The notes beneath the pieces were generated by a model, which was not told the DNA's origin, did no database searches, and worked only from the letters and a program-made list of their open reading frames with translations. Below, in pieces: positions 52,743 to 58,249 of a stretch of DNA of 64,000 bases. How positions within the stretch are numbered: the first letter of the stretch is position 1; each line of letters opens with the position of its first letter. This DNA comes from Thiorhodococcus drewsii AZ1 (GTDB lineage: Bacteria > Pseudomonadota > Gammaproteobacteria > Chromatiales > Chromatiaceae). A program made the position numbers and the translations under genes. The DNA lies in the NCBI RefSeq assembly GCF_000224065.1, contig NZ_AFWT01000011.1:62001-126000 (forward strand). The letters are read 5' to 3'.

Positions 52743-53564
52743 ATGTCTAGAAGCAAGCCAAGTGCGGGGCTTTCCCGCGAGGAAAGGCACGAGGTGTCCG
52801 AGCGTCTGAGCCTGAGGTCGTTGCAGGTGTTCGAGATCGTGCGCCAGGAGGGTGTGGAGGAGTTGTCGCGGCCGATCAATTCGCTGTTCTGGTCCGGGAT
52901 CGCTGCGGGGCTGTCGCTCAGTTTGTCGGTCTATTGCATGGCCTTCCTGCATCAGGCGTTGGAGGGCAGTCGGCTCCAGCCCGCACTGGTCGGTTTTGGC
53001 TACAGTGTGGGATTCGTCATCGTGATCCTGGGACGCCTGCAACTCTTCACCGAAAACACCATTACGGTCGTGCTTCCGGTCTTGAGCGATATCAGTCGCT
53101 TCAAGATTCAGCGGACTCTGCGGCTCTGGGCCGTCGTCTTCATCGCCAACATGATCGGGACACTGGTTTCGGCACGGGTTGCGATTTCGGGCGGCATGCT
53201 GCCGCCCGAGCAATTGGAGGCGGCGCTCCTGGTCTCGCAACACCTGCTGCAGTATTCCGCGCTTCAGATCCTGCTCTATGGCATCCCGGCCGGGTTTATG
53301 GTGGCCTCGATCGTCTGGTTGATCCCGAACGCCAAGGGCGGCGAGTTTTGGATCATCGTGCTCATCACCTACATGATCTCGGTCGGCGGGCTGACGCACG
53401 TCGTAGCCGGATCCACCGAGTGGTTCCTGCTCGCCATGGACGGGGATTGCACCTGGGTACACGCGGTCTTCTCGGGAATCCTGCCGGCCTTGATCGGTAA
53501 CGTGATCGGCGGGACCGGACTGTTCGCCCTCATCACCTATGCCCAGGTGAAGGATGAGATCTGA
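52743..53564 (+). CDS. Formate/nitrite transporter family channel
   Basis: A 273-residue inner-membrane protein with six hydrophobic segments. The pattern LFWSGIAAGLSLSLSVYCMA, then GFVIVILGRLQLFTENTITV, and VVAGSTEWFLLAMDGDCTWV is of the FNT family, with the LF-E-N loop and a C-terminal Gly-rich helix. The N-terminal 45 residues are charged. FNT channels pass formate, nitrite, lactate or hydrosulfide; the sub-family is closer to YfdC-like proteins than to FocA by eye. In a sulfur bacterium, hydrosulfide cannot be excluded. GGAGG at nine bases before the ATG supports the start. Confidence 0.85.
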   Translation: MSRSKPSAGLSREERHEVSERLSLRSLQVFEIVRQEGVEELSRPINSLFWSGIAAGLSLSLSVYCMAFLHQALEGSRLQPALVGFGYSVGFVIVILGRLQLFTENTITVVLPVLSDISRFKIQRTLRLWAVVFIANMIGTLVSARVAISGGMLPPEQLEAALLVSQHLLQYSALQILLYGIPAGFMVASIVWLIPNAKGGEFWIIVLITYMISVGGLTHVVAGSTEWFLLAMDGDCTWVHAVFSGILPALIGNVIGGTGLFALITYAQVKDEI

Positions 53565-53594
53565 AATCCAGTGGCGCGAATAGGTGGGTTCAAT

Positions 53595-53614
53595 TCAATG
53601 ACACATGTCATTGA
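53595..53614. promoter_or_regulatory. Inverted repeat, candidate operator
   Basis: TCAATGACA and TGTCATTGA are perfect 9-base arms around a two-base spacer, 30 bases after the FNT gene. It is too short and too AT-rich to be a typical terminator, so an operator is more likely. Confidence 0.4.
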
Positions 53615-53758
53615 TGTCAATCCGCGAAAGGGAATTCCGCAAAAGAGCTCGTTGCGATAGGGAAGGTGGTCGGGTGAATGTCCGTCAAAACAGACTGCAT
53701 TGATTGGGTATATCGGTCTCGTGATTAAGTCAATGTTTTTATTGTATTTTGATATTTA

Positions 53759-53771
53759 AATCAATGTCTTG
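53759..53771. promoter_or_regulatory. IHF consensus-like site
   Basis: AATCAATGTCTTG fits the WATCAANNNNTTR consensus exactly. Such matches occur by chance about once or twice in a window of this size, but this one falls in the AT-rich upstream region. Confidence 0.3.
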
Positions 53772-53935
53772 CGTTTGATTTTTCTTGTGTCTGCATGGAC
53801 GCTTCATGTGCTATTTGTGAACTGGTTATCAGGTTCATGATTTTGGCGCTGTTAACCTGAATTGGCTCTTGCATACCGTTGCCAGACGGTTCGGGAGAGG
53901 AATGTTGTAAACATCATGGAAATGGAGAAGTTAAG

Positions 53936-54400
53936 ATGAAATTCCGTTTTGCCCTTGCTGGCGCTATCACCGCACTTCTAATCGCTTCGCCCGCCGCTTT
54001 TTCCGCTGACGATTTCGCCACTCCCCAGGAGGCAGAGGCGATGGTGCAAAAGGCCATCGACCACATTCATGCCGTCGGCAAAGAACAGGCCTTTGCGGAC
54101 ATTACCGGCAAGAAACCCGGCTGGATCGACCGTGACCTCTATCCCGTCGTCTTCGATCGCGAAGGCAACAATCTGGCCCACGGCCAGAACCCGAAGATGG
54201 TCGGAAAGAACTTTCTCGGCGTCACGGATGCCGGCGGTACGGCATTCATCTCGGAGCGCATGGAGCTCGCCAAGACGCATACCAGCTATTGGCACGACTA
54301 CAAGTACAAGGATCCCGTCACCAAGGCCATTCTCCCCAAGACGAGCTATTGCCAGACCAGCGACGATCTCATCGTCTGCGCCGGCGTTTACAAGCGTTAA
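53936..54400 (+). CDS. Secreted single-Cache-domain protein
   Basis: The ATG at 53936 gives 154 residues with a signal peptide (ALAGAITALLIASPAAFSA, cleavage before DDF). The mature part is a single Cache domain: AMVQKAIDHIHAVGKEQAFA, then DRDLYPVVFDREGNNLAHGQ, NPKMVGKNFLGVTDAGG and YCQTSDDLIVCAGVYKR. Such domains normally sit in chemoreceptors or kinases; here it is free in the periplasm. It lies 27 bases before a chemoreceptor gene, so I infer that it could bind a ligand and present it to that receptor. Confidence 0.82.
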   Translation: MKFRFALAGAITALLIASPAAFSADDFATPQEAEAMVQKAIDHIHAVGKEQAFADITGKKPGWIDRDLYPVVFDREGNNLAHGQNPKMVGKNFLGVTDAGGTAFISERMELAKTHTSYWHDYKYKDPVTKAILPKTSYCQTSDDLIVCAGVYKR

Positions 54401-54427
54401 CTGATCGCGCGCCGGGATTATCTCGCC

Positions 54428-56149
54428 ATGAAACTCAGGCACAAGATATTTGCCGCACCAGGCATCATCCTGATATTCCTCGTCGTTTTCGGACTCCTCG
54501 TCCTCGACTCGATGCGTCGCCAGAACGCGGCGCTCGACGAGATCTACGTTGTCCGGTTCGGCGATTATGAATTCGCGACGCACCTCGCGGGTACGATCGA
54601 CGACGTTCAGGCCCGCGCCTATCGTCTGATCAACTGGATGAGCGCCTTCGACGACTCGACGATCGACAGCGAAACACAGGGAATCGTCAAGAGCCTCACT
54701 CAGGTGACCGATGCGCTTGCTGAGGCCGCGAAAGCGGGACAAGGAGACGCCGATCTAGATCAGACGTATGGCGAGATTCTCCCGGCGGTTAAGACGTATT
54801 CCAAACAGATCAGCGATGCCCTCGACCTCGCGACCATGGATCCCAACATGGGCATGGCCATGATGGAGAAGGCCGACAAGAGCTATCAGCAGTTTGCGAC
54901 TCGGCTCAAAAACCTGATCGAGACCGATCGCAAAGCGGCGGGCGAAAGCTATGATATGGCTCGGGCGCAATTCGGTCGCGCCTTGGGTATCGCCGGGGTC
55001 GTGCTGGGTTTGGCCCTGCTGACGGGGATTCTGGTCAGTTGGATCCTGGGGCGCGGCATCATGAAACCGTTGCGCTATGCCGCCGATGGTTCCAAGAAGA
55101 TTGCGGCGGGGGATCTGACCGTTGCGCTGCACAGCTCGGCGAACGACGAGGTTGGCGATCTCATTCGCGCGCTCGACGCCATGCGTGACAATCTCAAAGG
55201 CATGATCGAGTCCATCCACGAGACGGCCGGGCAGCTCGGCACCGCTACGGATCAGCTCGTCGATGGGGCCACCAAGGTCGCTCAGGCATCGGAATCGCAG
55301 TCGGAGACGGCATCCTACGTCGCGACGGCCGTCGAAGAGCTCAACTCATCGATCAACCACATGGCCGACAACGCGCGCCAGGTGCAGGAACTGTCGCGCA
55401 ACTCCAGCCAGGTTTCCCATCAGGGCGGCGAGATCATTCGCCAGACCTTGGACGAGACCCAACGGATCGCCTCCGAGATCACCCGGGCCGCCCAGACGAT
55501 CGAGGGGTTGGGCGAACAGTCGTCACACATCTCGGATGTCGTCAGCGTTATCCAGGGGATCGCCGCTCAGACGAATCTTTTGGCCCTGAATGCGGCCATC
55601 GAGGCTGCGAGGGCAGGGTCGCACGGTCGAGGATTTGCCGTGGTCGCCGAGGAGGTCCGCGAACTCGCCCGGCGTACTGCGGGCTCGACCGACGAGATTC
55701 GCGAGATGGTCGAAAAAATCCAGCAAGGTTCCAACGACAGCGTTGCAGACATGCGGCGTGCGGTGGCGGCCGCCGACGGCGGTGTCAATCGCGCGGTCGA
55801 GGCCGGTGAGTCCAGTCGCGAGATTACGGCGGGCATGGAGGCCATGCTGCGCGAGGTCGATGCCATCACCGGCGCGCTGAACGAGCAGGGCACCGCCAGC
55901 CAGGAGATCTCCTCGAACATTCAGCGCATCGCCGACATGGCCACGGAGAATAGCACCTTCGCCTCCCACTCGGCTGGAGCGGCGAAGCAGCTGCAGGAGA
56001 TCGCCGCAATCATGCTGCGCCAGGTCAGCCGTTTCCAGATCGTTGCCGTTCCGGCGCCTTCCTCTGAACCGACCTCCCTGAACGACGGGTCGGAGGATTT
56101 GGAGATGCATCAAATCGATGGGGAGACTGTCGTGGCGCTCCAGACCTGA
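54428..56149 (+). CDS. Methyl-accepting chemotaxis protein
   Basis: A 573-residue chemoreceptor: helix one at residues 8-28 ([20 protein letters not shown]), a helical periplasmic domain of about 150 residues with no Cache fold of its own that I can see, helix two ([20 protein letters not shown]), HAMP and the signalling domain with [20 protein letters not shown] followed by [15 protein letters not shown]. There is no terminal pentapeptide. It is preceded by the secreted Cache gene. That gene pair suggests a receptor sensing through a separate periplasmic protein. Confidence 0.93.
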
Positions 56150-56389: not shown

Positions 56390-58249
56390 ATGATCAACAG
56401 CCTATTTGCCACGCGTCTGCTGACCGTGGCGGTCCTCGCCGCCTCGACTGCGCTCGCGGCCGAGGACTCAATCAAGACGCCGAACGGTGCCATGCGGCCC
56501 ACGATACAGGTCATGAACGCCGCCGTGTCGGCGCCGGACCAGTATTCGGCACTCGCGGCCATCGAAATCTTCAAGGCTGGTGGCAATGCCATCGACGCGG
56601 GGATCGCCGCGACCATCGTCTCCAAGGTCACTCAGCACGCCCACGACAGCTGGGGTGGCGAGACGCCGATCATGATCCACCATGCGGCGACGGACAAGAC
56701 CACCTACATCTCCGGCATCGGGCCCTCGCCGCAGTTGGCCACGGTCGAGTATTTCCAGAAGGTCCACAGCGGCATCCCGACCACGGACAGTGTCGACATC
56801 GCCTCCGTGCCGGGCAGCCTGGCAGGCCTCGCCCTGGCCCTGAAGGAATACGGCACCCTGCGTCTGGCGGACGTGATGGCGCCGGCCATCGAACTGGCGG
56901 AGGAGGGCTTCCCCATCTCGCCCATGCAGGTGAAATGGCTCAAGAAATACGAACCCATCTATTCGAAGTGGCCCGACTCCAAGCGCGTTTTCATGCCCGA
57001 GGGCAAGGTACTGGAGGTCGGCGAGATCTTCAAACAGCCCGATCAGGCGCGGATGATGAAGGCGATGGTGGCCGCCGAGAGCGCCTATCCGGACGACCGC
57101 GCGAAAGGCATTCAAGCCGCGGTCGACTACTTCTACAAGGGTGACGTTGCCAAGGAAATCGACCGCTTCATGCACAACCTTCCCGATGTCGGAATCCCCG
57201 ACCAGGGACTGCTGAGATACGGCGATTTCGTCAAGTTCATCGACGAGGTCCAGATCGAGTACGCCCCGCTGCATACCACCTACGAGGACTCGAAGGGCAA
57301 CCGCTACGACTTATACGCCGCCAACACCACGACTCAGGCGCCGGCGCTGCTGATGGCGGTCAATATCCTCGATGCCTACGACATCGGCGCGATGGCGCAC
57401 AACAGCCCCGAGTATCTGCATCTGCTCGTCGAGACCATCGATTTGGTCATGGCCGATCGTTACACCTATTTCGGCGATCCGGACGTGGTGTACGTCCCTC
57501 AGGAGCAGCTGGTCTCGAAGGCATATGCCGACGTCCGCCGTCCCCTGATCGATCCGAAGAAGGCCGCCCCGCACTTCGAGCCGGGCGATCCCCGCGCGAT
57601 GAAGGCGCGACTGGCAGGGACGCTCAATCTGGCCCAATCGGACGGCCCTCCGAGCGATTGGGAGACCAGCACCGTTCAGCTGGCCACGATGGACAAGGAT
57701 GGCAACATGTTCAATGCCACCTCCAGCAACAACATGGGGGTCAAGTTCGGCGTGGTGCCGGGCAACGTCGGTTTCCTGCTCGGCGGACGCATGCGCATGT
57801 TTTACATGGATCCCGAGAGCGCCAACCAGGTGGGTCCCTTCAAGCGTCCGCGCGTCACCCCGTGCCCGGTCCTGGTGTTCAAGAACGGCAAGCCCTGGCT
57901 CAACCTCGGCACGCCGGGCGGCGACCAGCAGATCCAGACCATGCTGCAGCTGTTCATGAATATCGCCGAATTCGGCATGCCGCTGCAGAACAGCGTCGAG
58001 CAGTACCGCTTCAGGAGCTTCGCCTTTCCCAAGGCCTTCTATCCCGGCGAGATCCTGGATTATCAGATGGGCATCGGCCACCTGGCCAGCCCGCAGGTCC
58101 TGAAGGGACTCGAAGCCTTGGGCCACCAGGTGAAGGTCGAGGATACCTGGAAGGAGCCCTATGGCGGCGCTGCCCTGGTTTCGTTCGAGAACGGGGTGCT
58201 CTCGGCGGGGGCCGATCCCAGGCGTGAAACCTACGCGCTCGGATACTGA
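56390..58249 (+). CDS. Gamma-glutamyltranspeptidase-like Ntn-hydrolase
   Basis: A 619-residue periplasmic protein with a signal peptide (LLTVAVLAASTALA, cleavage before AED) and GGGAG-type ribosome binding site (GGGAGTCGTAC) before the ATG. The large-subunit region is conserved (AIEIFKAGGNAIDAGIAATI; SVDIASVPGSLAGLALALKE). The putative self-cleavage and nucleophile Thr aligns at T428 (DWETSTVQLATMDKDGN). The small-subunit glycines are changed compared with E. coli Ggt (GNVGFLLGGRM), so its substrate may not be glutathione. It stands alone; in sulfur bacteria such enzymes may handle glutathione-related thiols. Confidence 0.85.
   Translation: MINSLFATRLLTVAVLAASTALAAEDSIKTPNGAMRPTIQVMNAAVSAPDQYSALAAIEIFKAGGNAIDAGIAATIVSKVTQHAHDSWGGETPIMIHHAATDKTTYISGIGPSPQLATVEYFQKVHSGIPTTDSVDIASVPGSLAGLALALKEYGTLRLADVMAPAIELAEEGFPISPMQVKWLKKYEPIYSKWPDSKRVFMPEGKVLEVGEIFKQPDQARMMKAMVAAESAYPDDRAKGIQAAVDYFYKGDVAKEIDRFMHNLPDVGIPDQGLLRYGDFVKFIDEVQIEYAPLHTTYEDSKGNRYDLYAANTTTQAPALLMAVNILDAYDIGAMAHNSPEYLHLLVETIDLVMADRYTYFGDPDVVYVPQEQLVSKAYADVRRPLIDPKKAAPHFEPGDPRAMKARLAGTLNLAQSDGPPSDWETSTVQLATMDKDGNMFNATSSNNMGVKFGVVPGNVGFLLGGRMRMFYMDPESANQVGPFKRPRVTPCPVLVFKNGKPWLNLGTPGGDQQIQTMLQLFMNIAEFGMPLQNSVEQYRFRSFAFPKAFYPGEILDYQMGIGHLASPQVLKGLEALGHQVKVEDTWKEPYGGAALVSFENGVLSAGADPRRETYALGY

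Follow-up and report, generated by a model that had tools for sequence, protein, structure and literature searches.

The window, that is the whole stretch of 64,000 nucleotides analysed here, comes from Thiorhodococcus drewsii AZ1. Two genes lie side by side on its + strand. The first (53936-54400) encodes a secreted stand-alone protein of 154 aa with a single Cache domain (sCache_2), and the second (54428-56149) encodes a chemoreceptor (MCP) of 573 aa without a Cache domain, which is the arrangement that an earlier note on this DNA had described. The intergenic gap of 27 bp (54401-54427) and the common strand are consistent with one operon.

An FNT channel gene (52743-53564) precedes the Cache gene and a gamma-glutamyltransferase (GGT) gene (56390-58249) follows the receptor gene, both assigned by Pfam. 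The flanking FNT, kinase-like and GGT proteins were searched with tblastn at 18 other pair loci, some with short flanks, and none of them was found. This result suggested that the conserved unit consists of the Cache gene and the receptor gene, and the FNT channel was rejected as a part of it. The flank comparison is limited by the contig of the closest relative, which ends just past the receptor gene.

The 371 bp that separate the FNT gene from the Cache gene (53565-53935) are A-T-rich, with about 42% GC versus about 55-65% around them, and no clear promoter was found there. Promoter and terminator scans at the pair gave one match each, both on the other strand and at chance level (1.0 and 2.2 in shuffled sequences). 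Two sigma-factor-type patterns were counted over the whole window. The sigma-28-like pattern had 32 matches versus 18.5 expected, and the one nearest to the Cache start (53908-53934) was poor, with 3 mismatches; the sigma-54-like pattern stayed at chance (28 versus 24.9).

Secreted Cache protein

The Cache reading frame runs from the ATG at 53936 to the stop ending at 54400, and its product begins with MKFRFALAGAITALLIASPAAFSA. By inspection this N-terminus resembles a Sec-type signal peptide, and export of the protein is predicted. The signal peptide likely covers residues 1-24 (53936-54007, + strand), with cleavage after AFSA judged by eye. Prediction placed a single hydrophobic segment at residues 5-23 and no second one, and the AlphaFold2 pLDDT was low over residues 1-20. 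The protein matched sCache_2 (PF17200) with 47.7 bits against a cut-off of 25, and Pfam gave only Cache families and no output domain. A Cache fused to a membrane-spanning output protein was thus not what was found, as the product has 154 aa and only the signal peptide as a hydrophobic part.

The AlphaFold2 model of the Cache protein had a mean pLDDT of 87.7. Its best PDB fold matches were the Cache domains of chemoreceptors, namely 4exo/2qhk, 4k08 and 5g4y, and the top four matches, all of this kind, had E values from 2.2e-9 to 1.6e-8. The counterpart in Imhoffiella purpurea, the nearest named relative, is 88-89% identical. In the home genome (draft, 5.5 Mb) nine sCache_2 matches were detected. 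Two of them lie in short frames, one of 159 aa and one of 179 aa, and the 179-aa frame is the Cache gene of the window.

The only cysteines of the window Cache are C139 and C148, both in the last beta hairpin, where they could form a disulfide. The CXXCH heme motif is absent from its sequence, and identity with the heme Caches (sCache_heme) was thereby ruled out.

Chemoreceptor next to the Cache gene

The receptor has the composition of an MCP, with two transmembrane segments predicted at residues 7-25 and 180-198, a HAMP domain (51.3 bits) and an MCPsignal domain (144 bits). Pfam detected 4HB_MCP_1 in its N-terminal part (36 bits, cut-off 27) and no Cache domain. The small helical periplasmic part claimed in the earlier note was confirmed by the AlphaFold2 model, in which four helices were seen (residues 2-69, 76-103, 108-137 and 139-226; mean pLDDT 78, built from 7 sequences). 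The periplasmic bundle spans about residues 26-179 (54503-54964, + strand), and its membrane-distal tip lies at about residues 65-78 and 134-150 of the model. We propose this bundle as the docking part, on the basis of the transmembrane prediction, the modelled helices and the positions enriched in paired receptors (see below). MCPs are numerous in the home genome (53 MCPsignal matches, 52 over the cut-off), and 4HB_MCP_1 was found in only 12 of its ORFs (13 matches).

Conservation of the Cache-receptor pair

Sixteen loci came from a first pattern search of GTDB genomes, and the order Cache then MCP was observed in 7 of them (L045, L046, L047, L049, L051, L052 and L053), all among the nine closest. 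The unpaired ones were L048, L050 and seven more distant loci (L054-L060). A Cache profile (A1) of 12 rows, 10 from pairs and 2 unpaired, was built after the neighbours had been seen. Its rows include L020 and the whole group of nine closest loci from that search (two of them unpaired), and the unpaired L054-L060 were left out. The profile was searched in four genome sets with genomes drawn evenly: the phylum of the window (349 genomes), the order of another match (300) and the phyla of two MAGs, one from Nitrospirae (148) and one titled Deltaproteobacteria (297). The 349-genome and 300-genome sets overlap. Caches were counted when they scored at least 160 bits as the sole Cache domain of a frame shorter than about 260 aa. 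Five MCP-fused frames of at least 160 bits (G338, G452, G1114, G1071, G1092), secreted proteins with two Caches and all matches below 160 bits were excluded from the count. A limited number of candidates was scored in each genome, and the counts given are thus minimum values.

Among the matches listed, 23/43 stand-alone Caches of at least 160 bits were directly followed by a same-strand MCP gene at a distance of 3-85 bp, and 3/43 had an MCP directly upstream. At 190 bits or more the downstream pair was present in 17/20 of the matches listed, and the other three were the first Cache of the Cache-Cache-MCP array L053, a contig-edge case and one true negative (L122). Conservation beyond close relatives, which had been set beforehand as the check on the pair, was thus observed at both thresholds and in several phyla. 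When the four Caches that are themselves A1 rows were removed, 20/39 (at least 160 bits) and 14/16 (at least 190 bits) of the matches listed were paired. As a control for the bias of A1, Caches were also ranked by the window Cache alone; 16 of the top 20 were paired, and the other four were an array, a contig-edge case and the negatives L065 and L122. Below the top-scoring Caches, unpaired members predominate. By our own estimate, a random gene of the home genome has roughly a 1% chance of a downstream MCP neighbour, given its 53 MCP matches among about 5,000 assumed genes.

Pairs were found in named Chromatiaceae (Imhoffiella) and Betaproteobacteria (Uliginosibacterium, Pseudoduganella), as well as in Nitrospirae and in MAGs of the deltaproteobacterial group. 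Three further paired genomes (G238, G255, G307) belong to another class of the same phylum, probably the Alphaproteobacteria. Several loci had only a 1.5 kb flank, one (G874:C61) ends at a contig edge and another (G408:C208) has 197 bp downstream. Some pairs are embedded in che clusters. The gene order is CheW-Cache-MCP-CheR-CheA-CheB in L052; in L179, Cache-MCP-CheR-CheD is preceded by CheA and CheB at a distance of about 1 kb; and in L053 it is CheA-Cache-Cache-MCP-CheW, with the receptor split over two ORFs in this MAG.

Bundles of the partner receptors

In 28/30 pairs the periplasmic part of the receptor consists of about 150-170 residues between two predicted transmembrane segments, and one of these 28 has an extra segment, probably spurious. 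The periplasmic part of the remaining two has about 283 residues. When paired N-termini were compared with Pfam, 19/22 matched 4HB_MCP_1 at E 0.01. Ten further partner receptors, most of them chosen as atypical, all matched 4HB_MCP_1, TarH or HBM, five below the curated cut-off; three of the ten are cut off before or within the signalling part. Overall, helical-bundle families were matched in 29/32 scanned partner receptors (22 + 10), some weakly, and none of the 32 contained a Cache domain.

A receptor profile (A4) was built from 22 of 28 paired N-termini; L051, L052, L146, L110, L020 and L171 were dropped as atypical or near-duplicate. The scan of the ten further receptors covered L051, L146 (as L233), L110 and L020, without L052 and L171. 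Searching A4 over the 349 genomes gave 38 matches, and the neighbourhoods of 32 were covered (30, the second receptor of G320 and G387). Among the matches listed, seven genomes reached at least 170 bits, and in six of them a Cache lies directly upstream of the receptor, these six receptors being A4 rows themselves. In the seventh (G320) no Cache adjoins the top receptor or the second one (146 bits), and one receptor has a Cache about 3.6 kb downstream. Among the weaker receptors (89 bits or less), 23 had a locus from this search, and none of these showed a Cache directly upstream. The reversed order, with the Cache downstream of the MCP, was seen in G387 (receptor 79 bits) and G408:C208.

Several bundle positions are more conserved in 34 paired than in 23 unpaired receptors. 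W70 (56% versus 13%), M146 (74% versus 13%), A149 (76% versus 26%) and D150 (71% versus 13%) sit at or close to the membrane-distal helix ends in the AlphaFold2 model. Positions along the helices were also enriched in the paired receptors, namely K126 (68% versus 9%), F44 (53% versus 0%) and A62 (53% versus 4%), so the signature may mark a receptor subfamily rather than a docking site. By eye the common signature is missing in eight paired receptors (L051, L052, L146, L110, L020, L180, L176, L177), suggesting that helical receptors of more than one family have become partners of the Cache. Cache and receptor bundle co-diverged slightly beyond the signalling domain, with a partial r of 0.27 (p about 0.02, 18 pairs); after removal of near-copies r was 0.29, a weak signal. 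This co-divergence is suggestive only.

Ligand pocket

According to the PscD report (PMC5062169, in the sections available), the ligand carboxylate is hydrogen-bonded by Tyr90, His103, Tyr143 and Lys156. These residues align with Y69, H82, Y122 and K135 of the window Cache, whose acid-binding pocket is apparently intact. All four contact residues are kept in 35/38 paired and 44/50 unpaired stand-alone Caches, and in 16/29 fused Caches (one of the 29 has no letters there); the three groups, which also served for the tree below, were listed by hand and include near-duplicates. Since the unpaired stand-alone Caches keep the pocket too, the pocket alone does not point to the receptor. Among the closest solved structures, by sequence and by fold, are 4exo, 4k08 and 5g4y, which are Cache domains that bind carboxylates. 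A small carboxylate is predicted as the ligand of the Cache protein, but not which one. Both pocket tryptophans of PscD, W92 and W145, are replaced in the window Cache (V71 and Y124), and the ligand may therefore differ from that of PscD.

Unpaired Caches and other arrangements

Stand-alone members of this Cache family occur frequently, and many of them have no receptor as a neighbour. In Pseudoduganella namucuonensis (G405) at least 19 family matches were found, 16 of them in short stand-alone frames. Of 17 matches examined there (L050, L100, L106, L110, L113-L119, L186-L191), two have an MCP beside them (L110, L188) and 15 have none.

On a tree of 107 Cache domains the label "paired" needs 14 changes, at least 7 of them on well-supported branches, compared with a mean of 31.5 when the labels are shuffled. 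The tree has few alignment columns, a rough bootstrap and several long branches. The 14 changes suggest that partners were gained or lost repeatedly, and the smaller number of changes than with shuffled labels suggests that pairing was inherited over long stretches.

Other arrangements were also noticed. A C-terminal Cache on MCPs with two N-terminal transmembrane segments occurs in L066, L125, L161, L165 and L154, and further MCPs with a C-terminal Cache are L069, L080, L087, L130, L131, L135, L139, L028 and L173. This Cache is apparently cytoplasmic, because no transmembrane segment separates it from the MCP domain. The four carboxylate residues are kept in L066, L125 and L154 and not in L161 and L165. 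In L170 and L171 the Cache is flanked by an MCP gene on either side, and the upstream MCP seems to have no periplasmic domain. The MCP-like ORF of L173, which ends in a Cache, has a membrane part similar to that upstream MCP.

A second conserved lineage of stand-alone Caches was found in the family and genus of the window (L015/L034, L022-L027, L033, L035) and also in the home genome (C141). No MCP was seen beside it, and a LysR-like regulator, recognised by eye, is nearby in several of the loci. Two Cache stretches in tandem within one ORF of about 280-390 aa were seen in L070, L071, L074, L077-L079, L082-L086, L132-L134 and L143. Pfam shows only Cache families in L134, and L030 carries four sCache_2 stretches in 594 aa.

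Discussion

We propose that the two genes encode a two-protein chemoreceptor, and give this reading a probability of about 0.64. The secreted Cache protein would bind a small carboxylate-type ligand in the periplasm, and the loaded (or empty) protein would dock on the membrane-distal tip of the bundle of the adjacent receptor. Docking would change the control of CheA by the receptor through HAMP and the MCP hairpin, with the Cache domain filling the role that solute-binding proteins (SBPs) such as MBP play for Tar. The secretion signal, the Cache fold, the contact residues, the Cache-less receptor and the wide conservation of the pair can be read directly from sequence or model; from them we infer the ligand class, direct docking, the docking site and the direction of the response. 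The earlier note had suggested a split chemoreceptor in which the soluble protein binds the ligand. Its two-protein sensing unit, with the soluble protein as the predicted binder, is the best-supported reading, but the word "split" fits less well. The receptor keeps a complete helical-bundle sensor domain, so "binding protein plus receptor" is the better description.

It is also conceivable, though rather unlikely, that the two proteins work independently: the Cache protein would bind or buffer a carboxylate for uptake or scavenging and the receptor would sense a ligand of its own, the genes being neighbours because both respond to one substrate. Helical-bundle receptors can bind ligands directly, as is known for Tar, and the upstream FNT channel could carry a small monocarboxylate. 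With the L053 array and the contig-edge case set aside, 18/43 Caches lack a downstream MCP on their own strand; upstream of one of these 18 lies an MCP. However, the search at 18 other pair loci detected no FNT gene, and it is the receptor, not a transporter, that belongs to the unit. Moreover, the partner receptors scanned are of the helical-bundle type wherever they match anything and have no Cache of their own, and some pairs lie inside che clusters.

Another, improbable reading makes the Cache a ligand-free, constitutive partner that sets the activity or stability of the receptor, as YfiR does on YfiN. Small periplasmic partners encoded beside sensors do exist (PMC3375315, PMC12714742 and PMC13001219, each in the portion available), but the contact residues kept in 35/38 paired Caches would not be required of a ligand-free scaffold. 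Less probable still is a redox sensor in which a cross-strand disulfide between C139 and C148 is read by the receptor. The position of these only two cysteines in the last hairpin would suit it, as would the redox roles proposed for stand-alone heme Caches in the accessible part of PMC12889525. Both cysteines are kept in 11/38 paired Caches, but the pair is absent from the other 27/38 and no CXXCH heme motif exists; a structural disulfide would explain the cysteines equally well. Coincidental adjacency, for which only the MCP-rich home genome (53 matches) speaks, was rejected as very improbable, since in several phyla the two genes recur in one order, on one strand and a short distance apart, and since it is contradicted by the paired counts of 23/43 and 17/20 among the matches listed and 16/20 in the control.

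The two-protein chemoreceptor resembles MBP-Tar-type chemoreception, in which MBP docks on the membrane-distal tip of the Tar bundle: in both, a soluble periplasmic binding protein is proposed to stimulate a helical-bundle receptor. It differs in that the binder is a single Cache rather than a classical SBP, no transporter belongs to the conserved unit, and stimulation is what we infer here. As in SBP systems, a soluble protein, predicted from its signal peptide to be exported, is encoded with a receptor lacking that domain; a recognised SBP family was not detected, Pfam giving only Cache families. TorT-TorS and LuxP-LuxQ are further sensing units in which a periplasmic partner works with a membrane receptor. 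The VtrA/VtrC co-components (PMC9214523, as far as its accessible text goes) are likewise such a unit. Unlike the present pair, these three have other folds, and their outputs are kinases or regulators, not an MCP.

SBP families known to activate chemoreceptors and kinases are covered by PMC9602780, and in the available portion of that source the word Cache appears once, in a cited title. Many SBP-activated kinases are encoded next to the sbp gene, according to the accessible part of PMC11113362. The window Cache shares the Pfam family (for PscD, in the excerpt of PMC5062169), the fold and the four contact residues with the sCache_2 receptors for C2/C3 carboxylates PscD, McpP and Adeh_3718. 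Those receptors carry the Cache as their own membrane-anchored domain, whereas in the present pair it forms a secreted protein apart from the receptor, which has a helical bundle. In most cases a Cache sensor belongs to the receptor protein itself, as the earlier note stated, and this agrees with the figure of more than 90% fused in the available text of PMC12889525. The same text describes stand-alone Caches for the heme family and calls them highly unusual for Caches generally; the 2016 Cache census, in its accessible part, counted 2243 sCache_2 domains, 1534 of them in MCPs and 356 in HKs (PMC4822843). sCache_heme proteins (Tll0287/DUF3365) are stand-alone Cache proteins too (PMC12889525, same text), but the window Cache has no CXXCH and adjoins a chemoreceptor. 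Our literature search, with subscription titles mostly outside its scope, found no published account of a secreted Cache protein paired with a chemoreceptor. Binding-protein-assisted chemoreception is thus known for classical SBPs (PMC9602780, in the portion available), and what would be new here is a Cache as the binding protein.

A wider, more tentative idea, which we consider possible but doubtful, is that single Caches form an unrecognised class of soluble chemotaxis binding proteins across phyla, with the receptor-less paralogues as interchangeable ligand adaptors feeding a few helical-bundle receptors. If so, ligand recognition would be separated from signalling. If secreted Caches do act as binding proteins, a class of sensors is being overlooked in annotation, and a 4HB receptor whose ligand has not been identified may have a partner encoded beside it that can be tested. 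The attractant of the receptor would then be predictable from what the Cache protein binds, and fused and two-protein receptors could be compared as states of one module.
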